Shown here piece after piece: positions 5,877 to 38,123 of a stretch of DNA of 40,736 nt. Positions within the stretch are counted from its first letter, which is position 1; every line of letters starts with the position of its first letter. The DNA is from a virus. Both the position numbers and the translations under genes were made by a program. The stretch covers positions 1 to 40,736 of the IMG/VR virus record IMGVR_UViG_3300042934_001321. The stretch is one strand, 5' to 3'. The notes under the pieces are model-generated. The model saw only the letters and a list, made by a program, of their open reading frames with translations. It had not been told where the DNA came from and ran no database searches.

Positions 5877-6338
5877 TTACTTCTGCGGGTGGTTGGCGTA
5901 CTTCAGAAAGAAATCATACAGCTGCTTATAGCGCATTTCGAAAGCAAGTAGCATGTTCTTGGCTTCGACACTTGGGAACTGTCGATACACCCGAACCAGT
6001 CTCTTTTCGTCTTCGCTTAGTTTACTGAATTCAGTATCACTTTCTGTATCTGGTTCTGTGGTCGGTAACGCTAAGCCCGGAAACTCTGTGTCGGGAAGCT
6101 TAACTGGTGCACTCTCACCCTCGCCATAGTCTAGCCATGCCGCCTGGACATTCAGCCAGTCAGCTATCTTCTGCAATTTCTCATCGCGTGGCTTTGCCGT
6201 GCCCAGCGTATAACGACGAGCCATTTCATATGTGACATCGCAAGCCTGGCTTAGATCCTTGACGGAACGGCGCTGTCTGCGCATTTCTTCGGTCAGCCGG
6301 TTCGCGAAATCCTGATGTTTATTCGCTTTTTCTACCAT
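5877..6338 (-). CDS. CI-like repressor without peptidase domain
   Basis: The N-terminal half is an XRE/Cro-CI helix-turn-helix (HQDFANRLTEEM, VKDLSQACDVTYEMARRY, AKPRDEKLQKIADWL), the usual lysogeny repressor fold. The remainder is an acidic linker and a short helical tail (EDEKRLVRVYRQFPSVEAKNMLLAFEMRY) that probably multimerises. There is no S24/LexA-like domain, no Ala-Gly cleavage site and no Ser-Lys dyad, so RecA-stimulated self-cleavage is not expected. I chose ATG 6338 (153 residues) because family members have only a few residues before the HTH; ATG 6374 would give 165. A perfect operator palindrome overlaps ATG 6338, pointing to autoregulation. It is the only CI-like gene in the window. 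Confidence 0.82.
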   Translation of the reverse strand: MVEKANKHQDFANRLTEEMRRQRRSVKDLSQACDVTYEMARRYTLGTAKPRDEKLQKIADWLNVQAAWLDYGEGESAPVKLPDTEFPGLALPTTEPDTESDTEFSKLSEDEKRLVRVYRQFPSVEAKNMLLAFEMRYKQLYDFFLKYANHPQK

Positions 6339-6346
6339 AGGTAGAA
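6330..6346. promoter_or_regulatory. Perfect operator palindrome at repressor start
   Basis: TTCTACCATAGGTAGAA is a 6-5-6 perfect inverted repeat (CTAC at 6332-6335, GTAG at 6341-6344). It overlaps the likely repressor start codon and shares the CTAC-N5-GTAG pattern found at PR and PL. Confidence 0.75.
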
Positions 6347-6376
6347 GAGTAAGGCACGGCGCGTTTATAGTCATTT

Positions 6377-6417
6377 CTATTTTTCGTAGTTGTATTTTCT
6401 ACTTTATGTAGTATATT
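6377..6417 (+). promoter_or_regulatory. Rightward early promoter PR with two operators
   Basis: TTGTAT (6390-6395) and TATATT (6412-6417) are 16 bp apart. The spacer contains CTAC-TTTAT-GTAG (6399-6411). A second copy, CTAT-TTTTC-GTAG (6377-6389), overlaps the upstream edge, centred 22 bp away. The arrangement mirrors PL. The likely repressor promoter reads the other way through this region, but its elements are not clear. Confidence 0.78.
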
Positions 6418-6446: not shown

Positions 6447-6716
6447 ATGACTACTTCATACAAGAACATAACTGAAAAGGCAGTAAGGTCGATTGGTTCT
6501 GTTTCGGCCGTCGCCCGTAAATTCAACTTCAAATCCTCACAATCGGTAGCTAACTGGATTATCCGAAACAGGGTTCCCAGTGAGCGAGTGATAAAGCTCT
6601 GTGAATTTGGCGGCTGGTCAGTAACCCCTCACGAGTTACGTCCGGATTTGCATCCAACTCCTACCAGCGGAATTCCTGTTCAGGATATCCCACGCGCGAA
6701 GAAGGAGTCTGACTGA
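6447..6716 (+). CDS. Cro/YdaS-like DNA-binding protein
   Basis: This 89-residue protein is the first gene after PR. It has a helix-turn-helix of YdaS type: ITEKAVRSIGSVSAVARKF, then SSQSVANWIIRNRVP, then LCEFGGWSVTPHELRPDLHP. The HELRPD ending of the DNA-binding domain is typical of that family. YdaS was named from the Rac prophage, where it sits opposite the repressor racR and pairs with ydaT. By position it should act as Cro, repressing the early promoters. AGGAG lies 8 bases before ATG. Its stop overlaps the next ATG (TGATG). Confidence 0.85.
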   Translation: MTTSYKNITEKAVRSIGSVSAVARKFNFKSSQSVANWIIRNRVPSERVIKLCEFGGWSVTPHELRPDLHPTPTSGIPVQDIPRAKKESD

Positions 6717-7165
6717 TGGAAATCAAAAAGCTGGCATGCGAGCTGGAGTCCTGGGCTCAGGAAAAGGGCTGGAAGACGGTCACGCAGCTGATAACGCCGC
6801 ATCACTTTGGTGATCTGCTTCTGCCATTGGATAACGTGACGGACCCTGACGAGTACGCTCGTAGGCTGCACAACAACAAGCAGATTATTCAGCGCGCCTT
6901 CCGCAACGATACGCCGAATTATCTCAAGCAGGCGCAAGCGCTGAGCTATGCCATCCGCACCGCCATCGATAACGAACTGCAGCAGAAAGACTGCATGCTT
7001 TACCGGGCTGCCAGGGTTAACAAAGAGTGTATCGAAGCCACCAACGCGGTATTCACCGGCAAACCGCAACCGGTAATCAGGCGAGAGACTCTGGAAGCGA
7101 TCGACGCACTGGCGCAGCTGGCTGGCGTGAAAGTCCAGATTATGAACTGTCATCGCGCGGCATAA
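6716..7165 (+). CDS. YdaT-like protein in cII position
   Basis: The 149-residue product (MEIKKLACELESWAQEKGWK, then NNKQIIQRAFRNDTPNYLKQAQALSYAIRTAI) resembles proteins annotated as the YdaT family, also called toxin YdaT after the Rac pair. It is coupled to the YdaS-like gene by a TGATG overlap and occupies the cII position of lambdoid phages. A regulatory role in the lysis-lysogeny decision is at least as likely as toxicity. Family assignment is from memory and moderate. The C-terminal part (ETLEAIDALAQLAGVKVQI) is helical. Confidence 0.65.
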   Translation: MEIKKLACELESWAQEKGWKTVTQLITPHHFGDLLLPLDNVTDPDEYARRLHNNKQIIQRAFRNDTPNYLKQAQALSYAIRTAIDNELQQKDCMLYRAARVNKECIEATNAVFTGKPQPVIRRETLEAIDALAQLAGVKVQIMNCHRAA

Positions 7166-7179
7166 GGGTCAGTGAAGCC

Positions 7180-8151
7180 ATGAATCCATCTGACATCATT
7201 CGCGGGTTCGGTCGTCCGGTTGCGTATTACCCGGCTCTGGCCGAACACCTCGGCGGCGTTAGTGCCACCGTTCTGTTTTGCCAGATGACCTACTGGATGG
7301 ACAAGCTCACCTCCGATCTGGGTGTGCATAAAACATCAGAGGAAATCCAGGCGGAAACCGGTCTGAGTTACGAAGAGCAACTGACGGCACGGAAAAAACT
7401 TAAACGTCTTGGGGTTCTGGTAGAAACCCACAAGCGGCTTGAGCACCGGATTTACTTCAAAGTCAACTTTGAGCGCGTGGATCAGGTATTAACGCAAGTT
7501 GTTGATAATAAACCAAATGGACAAAGCCCATTTCGGGAGCAAGGGAAAGCCCAATCCGGGAACAAGGAAATGCCTTGTTCGGGAACTGGGGAAAGCCCAG
7601 CCCGCGGAGACGGCAAAGCCCATTTCGATCCTACAGAGATTACTACAGAGACTACTACAGAGAATAAAAACACTTCTTGTCCGGACGCTTCGCTGTCGGA
7701 CGCACAGCTGACCAAAGAGGCGTTTTTAAATCGTCATCCAGAGGCCGTTGTTGCCCATGCAGGAAAACGGCAGTGGGGAAGCAAGGAAGATCTGACCTGC
7801 GCTCAGTGGATGTGGAGCCGCATCGTCAAGCTTTATGAAAAAGCCGCTGAGACAGACGGGGAACTGGTGCGCCCTAAAGAGCCTAACTGGGCAGCATGGT
7901 CCAACGAAATCCGGTTGATGTGTGCCGTTGACGGCAGGACGCATAAGCAAATTTGCGAAATGTTTTCGCGTGTACAGCGTGATCCGTTCTGGTGCCGGAA
8001 CGTGATGTCGCCATCAAAACTGCGCGAAAAATGGGATGACCTGGTTCTTCGCCTACCGTCGCCGGGAGCGGCGCAACACCAGGCTGGTGGTCGGGATATT
8101 AATCACATTTCCCGCCCGGATAACACAGTTCCGCCAGGATTCAGGGGGTAA
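7180..8151 (+). CDS. Phage replication initiation protein (O-like)
   Basis: The 323-residue protein has an N-terminal winged-helix region (about 10-110: LSATVLFCQ-like segment, TSEEIQAETGLSYEEQLTARKKLKRLGVLVE, HRIYFKVNF). A low-complexity linker spans about 115-165. A helical C-terminal domain follows (about 180-310) with LTCAQWMWSRIVKLYEKA and WAAWSNEIRLMCAVDGRTHKQI. This layout matches phage initiators that bind the origin through the N-terminus and contact the helicase loader through the C-terminus. The linker is encoded by a set of DNA-level repeats that look like the replication origin. The DnaC-like gene follows by 2 bases. ATG 7180 is chosen because the winged helix starts soon after; longer forms overlap the previous gene. 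Confidence 0.75.
   Translation: MNPSDIIRGFGRPVAYYPALAEHLGGVSATVLFCQMTYWMDKLTSDLGVHKTSEEIQAETGLSYEEQLTARKKLKRLGVLVETHKRLEHRIYFKVNFERVDQVLTQVVDNKPNGQSPFREQGKAQSGNKEMPCSGTGESPARGDGKAHFDPTEITTETTTENKNTSCPDASLSDAQLTKEAFLNRHPEAVVAHAGKRQWGSKEDLTCAQWMWSRIVKLYEKAAETDGELVRPKEPNWAAWSNEIRLMCAVDGRTHKQICEMFSRVQRDPFWCRNVMSPSKLREKWDDLVLRLPSPGAAQHQAGGRDINHISRPDNTVPPGFRG
7521..7669 (+). other. Probable phage replication origin (iterons)
   Basis: Five 23-bp units occur at 7521, 7544, 7567, 7590 and 7613. Their core AAAGCCCA lies at exactly 23-bp steps (7523, 7546, 7592, 7615), with a degenerate copy at about 7569. The period is not a multiple of three, so selection acts on the DNA and not on the encoded linker. 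Immediately after are three 12-bp repeats beginning CTACAGAGA (7631, 7643, 7655) and an A-rich stretch, a plausible unwinding element. Lambda's origin has the same design inside gene O. Confidence 0.75.
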
Positions 8152-8153
8152 GC

Positions 8154-8894
8154 ATGCAAAACGCAGGTTCGATTCTCGATCGCCTTCGCCGTGTTATTCC
8201 GGCAGGCATTGAACCCAAATTCAAAAGCGCAGCTGAGCTGATGGCCTGGCAGCGTGAAGAAGGGCAAAAGCGCGCAGCGGAGATCGACAAGATCAACCAG
8301 CAGGCGCGGGCAGAGAAAATTTTCGGGCGATCCGGGATCCAGAACCTGCACCGCAGCTGCAGCTTCGCGAACTACACGGTGGAGGGCGACGGCCAGCGGC
8401 ATGCTCTGAGTATGGCAAAGAGCTATGCGCAAAATTTTGGTACCGGGTTCGCCAGTTTCGTTTTCACCGGAAAGCCTGGTACCGGGAAAAACCACCTTTC
8501 AGCGGCCATCGGCAACTACCTGCTGAAGCAGGGGAAAACGGTTCTGATTGTGACTGTGCCAGATCTGACCCTGCGCGCCCGAGCCTGCTATGACGAAGGG
8601 CAGTCTGAAGCCGCGCTGCTGGATGACCTCTGCAAAGTGGATCTGCTGGTGCTCGACGAAGTCGGCATTCAGCGCGACAGCCGCGGCGAGAAAGTTTTAT
8701 TGAACCAGATTATCGATCGCCGGCTGGCCGCTATGCGCCCCGTTGGCGTACTGACCAACCTGAATTACGACGCGCTGGTAGAGACCCTGGGGGCAAGGGT
8801 TATCGATCGCCTGCGCATGGATAACGGCATTTGGGTGAATTTTGACTGGGAGAGCTATCGCGGAAACGTTAGCCACCTGAGACCTGTTAAGTGA
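8154..8894 (+). CDS. DnaC-like helicase loader (AAA+ ATPase)
   Basis: The 246-residue protein carries the DnaC signature SCSFANY and SMAKSYAQNF. Walker A is GKPGTGKN (106-113), Walker B is LLVLDEVG (about 164-171), and a sensor-like VGVLTNLNYDAL and arginine-rich VIDRLRM follow. It should load the host DnaB helicase at the phage origin together with the upstream initiator. The Walker A ends GKN, where GKT or GKS is usual; the catalytic lysine is retained. Length is close to E. coli DnaC (245). Confidence 0.93.
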   Translation: MQNAGSILDRLRRVIPAGIEPKFKSAAELMAWQREEGQKRAAEIDKINQQARAEKIFGRSGIQNLHRSCSFANYTVEGDGQRHALSMAKSYAQNFGTGFASFVFTGKPGTGKNHLSAAIGNYLLKQGKTVLIVTVPDLTLRARACYDEGQSEAALLDDLCKVDLLVLDEVGIQRDSRGEKVLLNQIIDRRLAAMRPVGVLTNLNYDALVETLGARVIDRLRMDNGIWVNFDWESYRGNVSHLRPVK

Positions 8895-30406: not shown

Positions 30407-32423
30407 GGCCGTTATTACCTTTGGCGGCAATATCGACAGCTCCTGGAGCCGTTCAGCGAACGGCCTGCAAAAGAGCCTGAAGGACGTCGGGAAGCAGTCA
30501 GAAAAGCTGACGAAAGACCAGACTAAGCTGGCGGCGGAGATTAAGCGAGCGAAGCTGGCCGGGCAAAGCCTGGGAGACCTTAAACGGCGTTACAGCGATG
30601 TATCCCGTGAAATCCGTAAAACGGAGACCGAGCAGCAGAAGCTGAATCAGCAGATGCAGAAGGCGCAGCGGCTGGCAGCATTTAAGGGGGCAGGGAAGGG
30701 GCTGTTTCGCCGTGGGCTCGGTATTGCTGGACAGCTGGGCGGGATGGTTGCACCAGGGCTGGCGATTGGCGGTGGTGGCGTGGTGGCTTCCGCCCTGGGG
30801 ACCCTGATTGCTCCGGCGGCCACCAACGAAGAAACGGCCCGACGCGCTGGCGTGGCAAAAAGCTATGGCGTCGATATCCCGACGTTTGATGCCTGGGACA
30901 CCCTCGCGAAACAGTACGACATGAACGGGGAGAATATCGGCGATCTATTTGAGGAGTATCTGCATAAGTCGGGTGAGTACAAGCAGAACGGCAAGCAGGG
31001 TTCTTTGCAGGATGCGTTTGAAACGCTGGGTTTTAAAGCGGGTGATTTTGCCGGGCTCAGCGATATGGCGCAGTTCGAAAAAATTGTTGAGCGTGCGCTC
31101 AGCCTGCAGGATGAATCGAAGGCCTCGTTTGCGCTGGATTCGCTGTTTGGCGGTGAGGCCAGCAAACTGTTGATGCTGCTCAAGCAGTCCGGCAAGAGCT
31201 ACCGTGACCTAATGGACGAACAGCGGCGCTATAACCTCGTCACGAAAGAGGGCGCCGAAGGGGCGATGGCAGGAAATCGCGCCGTCACTAACCTGCGCAC
31301 CGTTTTCTCCTCCGCTGTGGCGGAAATCTCCGGCCAGTTGGGTAACGAGCTGGCACCGGATATCCGCCGTCTGACGGACGATATGGCGGAGTGGTTTAAG
31401 GGGGGAGGGATCAAGCGTATCGTCAGCTTCCTGCGCAATGACCTTTACCCCGGCGTGCTGACATTCGGACAGGGCATTGTTTTCGTCGGGAAAGTGGCCT
31501 ACGCGCTGGCAAAAAAACTGTCCTGGCTTTTACCGGATGAGCGAAGCGATCAGCGGGACGTGCTTAAGTCGCTGGCGATGACCGGCTCGGTTGATATCGC
31601 GCGCATGACGGCGCAGCGAAACGGTCAGGGAGAGTGGTTCGAACAGCAGTTGAAGGAAAAACCAGATCTGCCGGACGATGTGAAAAAATCGTACCGGGAT
31701 ACGCGGGGCTTTTTCCGCGATGACGAGGACGCTTTCAACAATACGCTGGATAAATATGTGATGCCGGAAAACAGCGGTGCGCAGTTCTCCTGGGATTCTG
31801 CAATCAACCAGAACAAGGGGGCACCGGCGCAGCCCGGGCGTGAAACATCCGATCAGTCTGCGGGTGCCTGGGATAATTACAGACTCCCTTCCTTACCTGC
31901 GTTTGAAAAAAGCCTCAACTGGCCCGTAGCCGAGAAATTGACAGGATCCTCAGACAAGCCTTTAACGGTTAATCCGATGGTGAATGTTGATGTTTATCCT
32001 CCATCTGAATCTGGCGGTATGCGGGAGGCGTTCACTGATAATCAACGCCACCGGGATAACCGCGCGGATGTCATGCTTTACCCTCAAGACATTGCCTTAC
32101 CTCGGTATCCGGCCCCGGCGCCTCTCCCGCCTGACATTGCCTGGCCCCGGTATCCGGTCCCGGAGCCTCTCCCACCAGCAGGCAAGTCAGGCCAGGAGGG
32201 TGGCAGTGGCTGGGACATGTTACTGCAGAGGCTGGATTCCGCGGACAAAGCGCCACCACCCCGGCAACTGACTGATAACCGTAGGTATGAATACCGGTTT
32301 GAAATTCACGGTGCACCGGGGCAGGACGAGCGGGGGATTGCTGATGAAGTGGAGGCAGTGACGAAAAGCAGCCCGGCTTTTACGGGTGACAGCAGCATGC
32401 TGGACGGAGGGCAAATCTGGTGA
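30381..32423 (+). CDS. Tail tape-measure protein
   Basis: The 680-residue protein starts at GTG 30381, with GGAGG 9 bases upstream. It has an N-terminal coiled coil (about 25-105), a hydrophobic glycine and alanine-rich segment (GLGIAGQLGGMVAPGLAIGG) and the conserved phage tape-measure core (YGVDIPTFDAWDTLAKQYDM, LRTVFSSAVAEISGQLGNEL). The C-terminal region is proline-rich and disordered, with a tandem 15-residue duplication at 32088-32177. It sets tail length and is ejected ahead of DNA. Length suggests a tail of roughly 100 nm (inference). Confidence 0.93.
   Translation: MAGLSQNLKAVITFGGNIDSSWSRSANGLQKSLKDVGKQSEKLTKDQTKLAAEIKRAKLAGQSLGDLKRRYSDVSREIRKTETEQQKLNQQMQKAQRLAAFKGAGKGLFRRGLGIAGQLGGMVAPGLAIGGGGVVASALGTLIAPAATNEETARRAGVAKSYGVDIPTFDAWDTLAKQYDMNGENIGDLFEEYLHKSGEYKQNGKQGSLQDAFETLGFKAGDFAGLSDMAQFEKIVERALSLQDESKASFALDSLFGGEASKLLMLLKQSGKSYRDLMDEQRRYNLVTKEGAEGAMAGNRAVTNLRTVFSSAVAEISGQLGNELAPDIRRLTDDMAEWFKGGGIKRIVSFLRNDLYPGVLTFGQGIVFVGKVAYALAKKLSWLLPDERSDQRDVLKSLAMTGSVDIARMTAQRNGQGEWFEQQLKEKPDLPDDVKKSYRDTRGFFRDDEDAFNNTLDKYVMPENSGAQFSWDSAINQNKGAPAQPGRETSDQSAGAWDNYRLPSLPAFEKSLNWPVAEKLTGSSDKPLTVNPMVNVDVYPPSESGGMREAFTDNQRHRDNRADVMLYPQDIALPRYPAPAPLPPDIAWPRYPVPEPLPPAGKSGQEGGSGWDMLLQRLDSADKAPPPRQLTDNRRYEYRFEIHGAPGQDERGIADEVEAVTKSSPAFTGDSSMLDGGQIW
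32088..32177 (+). repeat. Tandem 45-bp duplication in tape-measure gene
   Basis: Two 45-base copies encode DIALPRYPAPAPLPP and DIAWPRYPVPEPLPP. The copies differ at a few bases. They lie in the proline-rich C-terminal tail and may reflect slippage-driven length change. Confidence 0.8.
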
Positions 32424-36035: not shown

Positions 36036-38123
36036 ATGGCTGAGAAGTATTACAGCATTCTGACCAACAGGGGCAAAGAGCTGGAGGCGCAATCCTCTGC
36101 GACCGGGAAGCCCGTCATTATAAAAGATTTTGTGGTTGGGGATGGTAACGGCCAGGCCGTTAAGCCGGACCCGGCACAGACGAAACTGGTACGTGAAGTG
36201 TATCGCAACGCGATTTCTGCGCTGCAGGTTTCGCCGGACCAGGCAAACCAGTTTTTAGCGCAGCTGGTTCTGCCGGTTGGCGTGGGGGGATTCGTTGTCA
36301 GGGAGGTCGGCCTGCTGACTGATGCGGGGGAGCTGTATTCCGTTGCGAACAGCGCCGCCATAGAAAAGCCGGAGAACGGTGTCAGTGTGAGCCTGCAATA
36401 CCGTCTTGCGGTATCGGAGTCGGCGAACATTGAGCTTAAAGTGGCAACCGGCGATGGTCTGTTCCTGCGGATCGATAAAAATCTTGCTGAGATAGCGGCG
36501 AAAGGCGAGGCGGCCCAAAAAAGCTCGCGTGAAGCCATAGGCGTTCTGGATGCCACAACTGCGCGTAAAGGTCTGGTCCAGCTCAGTAGTGTAACCAACA
36601 GTTCGTCGGAGGCGCTGGCGGCCACACCGAAAGCAGTTAAGGCGGCCTACGACCTAGCGAACGGTAAATATACGGCTCAGGATGCTACCACAGCGCAAAA
36701 AGGTATCGTCCAGCTCAGTAGCGCAACCGACAGTACGTCCGAGGTGCTTGCAGCGACGCCGAAGGCAGTGAGCACTGCTGCTAAAGAAATTAGAGACGAT
36801 CTCAGAACAGCGGCCTTTAAAGACGTTGTCACATCGCAGACAGATACCACAGCGGGAAGGGTGCTGAATGTGGGGTATGGTGGCCTTGGCGGAACCGCCC
36901 CTCGTACACCTGTGGCGGGTGCTGCTAACTATGACAATATACCAACTGGATTACCTTCGGGCTACTGGACGCATGCTGTTGATGGCGGTCCATATGCCCA
37001 CACACTGACTCTGCTGCAGGACGGAGGGGGAAGCAGGGACGACAGACATTTGATTATTCCGTCCAGCAACGCAGGTAAAATTGCACTTCGGTGGGATAGT
37101 GGAAATTCAAAGAATTACCAGTATTTTTACACCGATAAAAACAAGCCAACGGCGGCTGATGTCGAAGCACTACCAGCCTCACAAAATAGTCTCTCAGTTG
37201 ATCTTAATACGCTGGGCACCATGAGCAGTAATGGGGTTTATTACCAAACGAGCAACGCGGGTGCTACAGCAGCAAATCATTACCCGGCACAGCAAGCAGG
37301 GACACTGTATGTGACGCGTTCTGCCTATGGCTGTCAGCAGATGTATATCACATACTCAAACAGGATATTCATCAGAGCATTAACGGGGAGTTGGAGTGGT
37401 TCTGGCCCATGGTCTGACTGGGCTGAAATGTATGGGCCGAATAATAAACCAAGTTCAGATGATGTAAGCTGTATACAGCGTGATGGAGCACATATAGGTG
37501 GGTTTGCATCAGGAGATGTTGCACGACCCTATATGAGACATACTGCATCCGGTACTGCTGTAATACTGGCTAAGGTTGGAGATTCGTATACCAAAGCTGA
37601 ATCTGACAATGGATATATGCCTAAAACCGGAGCATATACCAAGACTGAAAGTGATGGACGCTTCCAGCCAAAAGGCAACTACACACCAGCAGGACAGGCT
37701 TACACCAAAGCAGAGAGCGACGGTCGTTTTCAGCCGAAAGGGAATTATACCCCGGCGGGGCAGGCTTATACGAAGGCTGAAAGTGATGCTCGTTACCAAC
37801 TAAAAAATACAGCCTCACGTGCAGGGAATGGGTGGTTCAAAGATACATCGACAGGAATGATTACCCAGTGGGGAACCGTAAGTTTACCAGCAAGCAATGG
37901 TCGTGTTACTTCAGCAAACTTTAATTTTCCAACAGCATTTCCAAATACTGCGTTAAGTATTGTTACAAGTCCTGCTAACTCCAGGGTTAATAATGGCGGG
38001 TTCTATCCTGTTACAGCTGTAACCGCCCTCACAAGTTCCGGTGGAACGATTTCAGCTGATTCAAACGCTGGGGAGAATTTCTCATTAACACAAACCATTC
38101 GTTATATAGCGATAGGGTATTAA
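36036..38123 (+). CDS. Tail fibre protein (P2 gpH-like)
   Basis: The 695-residue receptor-binding protein has a conserved N-terminal baseplate-anchor domain (about 1-150: AEKYYSILTNRGKELEAQSS, FVVGDGNGQAVKPDP, GFVVREVGLLTDAGELYS). Two shaft repeats follow with ARKGLVQLSS and AQKGIVQLSS followed by EALAATPKAV. A variable middle carries several YTKAESD repeats. The distal domain (about 590-695: GNGWFKDTSTGMITQWGTVS, FPTAFPNTALSIVTS) has a gp53-like C-terminal fold. It determines host range. The distal third is AT-richer than the N-terminal part, consistent with modular exchange. Confidence 0.92.
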   Translation: MAEKYYSILTNRGKELEAQSSATGKPVIIKDFVVGDGNGQAVKPDPAQTKLVREVYRNAISALQVSPDQANQFLAQLVLPVGVGGFVVREVGLLTDAGELYSVANSAAIEKPENGVSVSLQYRLAVSESANIELKVATGDGLFLRIDKNLAEIAAKGEAAQKSSREAIGVLDATTARKGLVQLSSVTNSSSEALAATPKAVKAAYDLANGKYTAQDATTAQKGIVQLSSATDSTSEVLAATPKAVSTAAKEIRDDLRTAAFKDVVTSQTDTTAGRVLNVGYGGLGGTAPRTPVAGAANYDNIPTGLPSGYWTHAVDGGPYAHTLTLLQDGGGSRDDRHLIIPSSNAGKIALRWDSGNSKNYQYFYTDKNKPTAADVEALPASQNSLSVDLNTLGTMSSNGVYYQTSNAGATAANHYPAQQAGTLYVTRSAYGCQQMYITYSNRIFIRALTGSWSGSGPWSDWAEMYGPNNKPSSDDVSCIQRDGAHIGGFASGDVARPYMRHTASGTAVILAKVGDSYTKAESDNGYMPKTGAYTKTESDGRFQPKGNYTPAGQAYTKAESDGRFQPKGNYTPAGQAYTKAESDARYQLKNTASRAGNGWFKDTSTGMITQWGTVSLPASNGRVTSANFNFPTAFPNTALSIVTSPANSRVNNGGFYPVTAVTALTSSGGTISADSNAGENFSLTQTIRYIAIGY
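37587..37800 (+). repeat. Fibre repeats identical in protein, divergent in DNA
   Basis: The unit YTK(T/A)ESDGRFQPKGN followed by YTPAGQA is present at 37635-37700 and 37701-37766, with partial copies on both sides. The two full units differ at 18 of 66 bases but at only one residue; 16 codons are changed synonymously. Confidence 0.85.

Follow-up and report, generated by a model that had tools for sequence, protein, structure and literature searches.

A probable iteron-type replication origin within the linker-coding part of a phage's own initiator gene

In bacteriophage lambda, each iteron of the origin is bound by a dimer of initiator N-terminal domains, the resulting O-some destabilises the adjoining AT-rich region, and the C-terminal domain brings the helicase loader (PMC6022878, PMC7466680). 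In the RepA_N plasmids, the origin boxes lie centrally in rep and are bound by the N-terminal winged helix of an initiator whose linker is dispensable and whose domains are exchangeable (PMC5703833), and the iterons are described as inverted repeats that meet at a poly-A tract (PMC7145576). Plasmids RK2 and F carry short AT-rich 13-mers near their iterons, and Rep binds one of the two single strands of these repeats (PMC4081077).

The locus described here was found in the window, that is, the whole stretch of viral DNA that was analysed (40,736 nucleotides). With a probability of roughly 90%, it appears to be an iteron-type replication origin of the phage, set within the phage's initiator gene where that gene encodes the interdomain linker. 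This reading is strongly supported by both anatomy and evolution. An earlier reading, made from the letters alone (the sequence-only reading), had placed the repeats inside the linker coding region of the replication protein, and they do occupy positions 7521-7676, between an N-terminal domain that extends to 7500 and a C-terminal domain that starts at 7690 (Table 1).

Table 1. Features of the initiator gene, its proposed origin and the neighbouring loader gene (positions in the window)
Feature	Position	Strand	Description
Replication initiator gene	7180..8151	+	323 aa, ATG 7180, stop 8151; PHROGs phrog_9773 / phrog_391 'replication initiation O-like'
Initiator N-terminal domain	7180..7500	+	Predicted winged helix with Q..YW motif; proposed iteron-binding domain
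Iteron 1	7521..7543	+	AAAGCCCA exact
Iteron 2	7544..7566	+	AAAGCCCA exact
Iteron 3, degenerate	7567..7589	+	AATGCCTT at 7569
Iteron 4	7590..7612	+	AAAGCCCA exact
Iteron 5, conserved half	7613..7630	+	CAAAGCCCATTTCG, runs into 12-bp array
Three 12-bp repeats, proposed DNA-unwinding element	7631..7666	+	CTACAGAGATTA / CTACAGAGACTA / CTACAGAGAATA
A-rich stretch AATAAAAACACTT	~7663..7676	+	
Initiator C-terminal domain	7690..8148	+	Homologue of lambda O C-terminal domain
DnaC-like helicase loader, proposed partner	8154..8894	+	phrog_50; NCBIfam NF009043 above its cut-off

The assignment of the gene rests on profile matches to phrog_9773 (E 8e-73 over residues 1-292) and phrog_391 (E 2e-68 over residues 51-323). 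Its C-terminal domain is 39% identical to that of lambda O over 104 aa (E 2e-25). The N-terminal domain was modelled by AlphaFold2 with a pLDDT of 83 and is predicted to be a winged helix; its structural neighbours are winged helices, including, at or near the top of the ranking, the N-terminal domains of RepA_N initiators (4pql, Z 9.0; 4pt7, 8.7; 5kbj, 8.1), and unrelated winged helices score up to 8.8. A Pfam search of the initiator found no family, a sequence-level search of solved structures with the N-domain profile returned nothing relevant, and no Rfam family was found near the gene. When the whole gene was compared with E. coli genomes, five of them matched no more than part of it, with identities of about 73-75%. 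The neighbouring loader gave no meaningful alignment to lambda P, and it was not classed as a P-type loader.

Other features of the window concern regulation and late genes. Two 22-bp direct repeats, TTTCTACTTTACGTAGTTATAT, lie at 6374-6417 between a divergent repressor gene (5877-6374, minus strand) and a YdaS/Cro-like gene (6447-6716), and are probably repressor operators. The genes in the Cro and CII positions (6447-7165) match the Pfam families YdaS (above cut-off) and YdaT (weakly), which are named as toxins; in PHROGs they correspond to a repressor and a CII-like activator, and here they resemble regulators of the phage. In the late region (32088-32173 and 37635-37805), tandem repeats have unit lengths of 45 and 66 bp, both multiples of three, and are likely protein repeats in structural genes.

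The sequence-only reading had described five 23-bp units sharing the core AAAGCCCA. The exact 23-bp steps stand, with AAA at unit positions 3-5 throughout, whereas the core is exact in four of the five units (at 7523, 7546, 7592 and 7615) and reads AATGCCTT in the third. At lags 15-40, no segment of the 40.7-kb window repeats itself more strongly than this one, which scores 31 at lag 23; the next segment reaches 15, and shuffled windows reach at most 14 at any lag from 15 to 40. Against synonymous-codon shuffles, the repeat gives p=0.005, the floor of the procedure. As positive controls, lambda gave best lags of 20, 44 and 23, its annotated iterons being spaced by 20, 24 and 23, and phi80 gave a best lag of 21, with four gp15 sites annotated in the gene.

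The weighted consensus of the units is gGAAAnCgcAaTTCGgGaAaana, in which the A-tract is among the most conserved features. The units are also semi-palindromic, since in the window's group the complementarity at the best centre is 0.42, compared with a shuffled maximum of 0.31. Over 31 wider arrays, the mean dyad score is 0.63 versus 0.50 in shuffles, and 14 arrays are individually at p<=0.05. A period of 23 bp combined with a dyad implies a second dyad centre half a unit away, and the A-tract sits on one of the two. For these 31 arrays, the more AT-rich of the two equivalent centres was chosen, so the AT contrast arises partly by construction; the excess of A over T alone is free of this effect. 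Folded as a single strand, 7521-7690 shows nothing remarkable (z -1.5) and gives no lead towards an origin of the hairpin type.

Directly after the units come the three 12-bp CTACAGAGA repeats, found as the earlier reading had them (at 7631, 7643 and 7655, period 12), and the A-rich stretch that it had placed behind them is likewise there. The G+C content falls to 0.39 in 7630-7685; the units have 0.57, and the domains on either side 0.52-0.56. The 12-bp array is AT-rich in every relative, including those with G+C-rich genes (in L063, whose gene is 36% AT, the array reaches 60%). Its period is 12 in most relatives and 13, out of frame, in three (L061, L161, L163).

The position of the array beside the units bears on an alternative, namely that the units act as an operator, or as a copy-control (incompatibility) site, through which the initiator limits or represses its own gene, and that replication starts elsewhere. 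Iterons of plasmids often double as control sites, and sites of an initiator within its own gene could act as a roadblock. Nevertheless, a scan of the rest of the window turned up no second repeat array and nothing else resembling an origin, the AT-rich array directly adjoins the units in nearly all relatives, as in lambda, and the site lies in mid-gene with no sigma-70-like promoter found nearby. A purely regulatory site is accordingly considered very improbable.

The evolutionary side of the origin reading comes from relatives of the N-terminal domain, which were gathered from viral contigs, genomes and phage records. There are 79 such genes, and in a set of 26 of them linker identity stays below 90%. 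The hosts of the phages and prophages concerned are Enterobacterales, Burkholderia, Paraburkholderia, Acinetobacter and Pasteurellaceae. Lags from 14 to 40 were scored against 200 synonymous-codon shuffles per gene. The earlier reading would have been contradicted by relatives that keep the initiator and lose the 23-bp period; in fact, lag 23 exceeds the shuffles in 24 of the 26 divergent relatives, with a summed z of about 30 (score 531 versus 161 +/- 12), although shared ancestry means that these relatives are not independent of one another. It is the best lag in 19 of the 26, and lag 24 ranks second owing to two 12-bp repeats. The remaining two, L159 and L165, show no significant lag-23 signal, L159 having only about 1.5 units.

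Substitution patterns point in the same direction. In the units (codons 115-150), 13 close sequences differ by 0.147 at the amino-acid level and by 0.089 at synonymous sites, while 36-codon windows outside the linker show synonymous differences of 0.142-0.368. The ratio of amino-acid to synonymous difference is 1.65 in the units versus at most 0.89 outside the linker. In other words, synonymous variation is minimal where amino-acid variation ranks among the highest. The longest run identical in all 13 sequences spans 53 nt (7619-7671) and comprises the core of the last unit and the 12-bp array.

A second alternative would make the repeats a by-product of a low-complexity linker, arising by tandem duplication or from a flexible polar peptide, with no role as DNA. 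The 12-bp array lends it some substance, as it is read in one frame in 38 of 38 initiators among the matches listed in an array scan and encodes TE[IN]TTE; because of this constant frame, selection on the peptide (a TEITTE linker) or plain descent may contribute too. The 23-bp period of the units, however, is not divisible by three, and the units therefore encode different peptides. Within the array itself, codon choice is extreme: all 54 glutamate codons are GAG, compared with 203 of 566 in the rest of these genes, and 124 of 129 threonine codons are ACA or ACT, compared with 180 of 361. The 13-bp variants that leave the frame, the failure of synonymous shuffles and a protein that varies where synonymous sites do not also speak against this explanation, which is regarded as extremely unlikely. 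The same shuffles and substitution patterns bear out the earlier argument that a frame-shifting 23-bp period must be conserved for the sake of the DNA. Given the synonymous-shuffle excess, the low synonymous change and the 53-nt invariant run, both arrays are constrained as DNA; judged by these comparisons, selection on the units and the 12-bp array acts on DNA. The interdomain linker peptide would then be mostly a by-product of the DNA code, the TEITTE stretch perhaps being kept flexible and polar as well.

Natural domain swaps link the units to one part of the initiator. In L014, L017 and L018, the C-terminal domain is 93-94% identical to that of the window, the N-terminal domain is unrelated (MSMELMVQAM...), and the linkers carry quite different repeats of the ATTCACCAG type, with a best lag of 45. 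L022 combines an N-terminal domain 86% identical to that of the window with a different C-terminal domain, and its linker contains five units, AAAGTCCATTCCGGGAA, at exactly 23 bp, together with the 12-bp array. On the evidence of these sequences, the iterons travel with the N-terminal domain and not with the C-terminal domain, and the co-variation that the earlier reading had offered as a check is observed. The distances between N-terminal domains and between iterons are also correlated (Mantel r 0.41, partial 0.36); as this correlation is real but weak without close pairs (r 0.17), the case for co-variation was rested on the domain swaps.

Further linker repeats were noted in related initiators. 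The MSMELMVQAM... N-terminal domain occurs with a window-type C-terminal domain in L014-L018, L021 and L023-L058; the ATTCACCAG repeats of these linkers (best lag 45) also exceed synonymous shuffles and are probably a second iteron type. Shigella phage SfIV (L066, 2908-3849) has another N-terminal domain and 15-bp linker repeats around GTCAAAATCTGA, which likewise exceed synonymous shuffles and are possibly another iteron class. Additionally, the translations of L170, L183 and L225, which are initiators of the wider class described below, contain apparent HNH-type endonuclease segments between the N-terminal domain and the repeats.

A wider view was obtained by scanning viral contigs with the 12-bp array alone (pattern ACAGAGAWTACWACAGAGA), which returned at least 80 loci; among the matches listed, 75 of 80 have initiator-like N-termini, which form two groups. 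The 150 bp upstream of the array played no role in this search; of 39 distinct segments of this kind among the matches listed, 30 have their best lag at 23, five at 22 and three at 24, with a summed z of 44. Among 369 gammaproteobacterial genomes drawn, the motif occurred in two and a reversed control pattern in none. Five genome matches were inspected, and all lie within initiator-like genes, two being copies of one gene. Unit sequences are unrelated between N-domain subfamilies. Profile comparison joins the N-terminal domains of five subfamilies with probabilities of 87-99.9% and does not join them to lambda O (0.3-6%). By this measure, they are one profile-detectable superfamily, separate from lambda O.

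The 12-bp array is common to different N-domain subfamilies, and domain swaps occur around the segment, as would be expected if array and units were kept mainly as a recombination joint for exchanging initiator domains. Such a joint leaves unexplained the exact 23-bp spacing with subfamily-specific sequence, the dyad symmetry and the A-tract, and the units go with the N-terminal domain; this possibility is judged very unlikely. Under the origin reading, it is an evenly balanced proposition that the window is one member of a large, unnamed class of proteobacterial phage origins. In such a class, the genes of winged-helix initiators (motif Q/E..YW) would carry iterons of free sequence on a fixed 22-24-bp ruler and, after them, a 12-bp unwinding array (TACAGAGATTAC) that hardly varies. 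This array would be read not by the iteron-specific reading head but by some common factor, either a host protein or a surface that the initiators share. Within the RepA_N/DnaD fold, the class might be the branch found in phages of Gram-negative bacteria, and it would be independent of lambda O.

For binding, melting, direction and loader contact at the proposed origin, a conditional account can be offered. Dimers of the N-terminal winged helix would bind the units, whose spacing is about 2.2 helical turns, and assemble an O-some; the resulting strain would open the 12-bp AT-rich array. The lambda-O-like C-terminal domain would then deliver the DnaC-like loader, together with host DnaB, to the opened strand. 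The 12-bp array and the 23-bp ruler could serve as a DNA signature to pinpoint origins in many temperate phages annotated only as 'O-like'. Moreover, dozens of natural pairs with the same spacing and unwinding array, and with different iterons and DNA-binding domains, make origin-initiator co-evolution testable and, for iteron origins, separate what a specific reading head recognises from the needs of the opening step.

Among known systems, the RepA_N plasmids pSK41 and pSK1 and the PLE RepA resemble the window in having, inside the initiator gene, inverted-repeat units centred on an A-tract. The initiator of the window, unlike theirs, has a C-terminal domain of the lambda-O type. The RepA_N Pfam model PF06970 had no match in 38 N-terminal domains at E<=10; a control search with it had no match anywhere and is itself uninformative. 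The RepA_N resemblance of N-terminal domain and units is consequently taken as a lead and not as membership. Compared with the 13-mers of RK2 and F, the 12-bp array differs in sequence and unit length, and its role in unwinding is a putative one.

The comparison with lambda gene O, drawn by the sequence-only reading with the reservation that repeat sequence and length differ, is apt, the C-terminal domain even being homologous to that of lambda O. As in the lambda origin, phi80 gene 15 and the O genes of Stx phages, iterons and an AT-rich stretch lie in the linker-coding part of the initiator; as in lambda and its relatives, the units are semi-palindromic and a helicase-loader gene lies next door, although this loader is P in lambda and DnaC-like in the window. 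Unlike lambda O, the N-terminal domain of the window gives no BLASTP alignment to it at E<=100 and an hhalign probability of 5%. The unit sequence is unrelated to those of lambda and phi80, and the spacing is a constant 23 bp rather than 20, 24 and 23 (lambda) or 21 (phi80). The 12-bp ACAGAGA array of the window class is not seen in either phage. No description of this array or class was found in the part of the literature covered (few subscription journals, and not the early papers on lambdoid origins), and as far as that coverage shows, the combination of a 23-bp ruler and a common 12-bp array across an initiator superfamily of its own is undescribed. The principle of such an origin is already known from lambda and the RepA_N plasmids.
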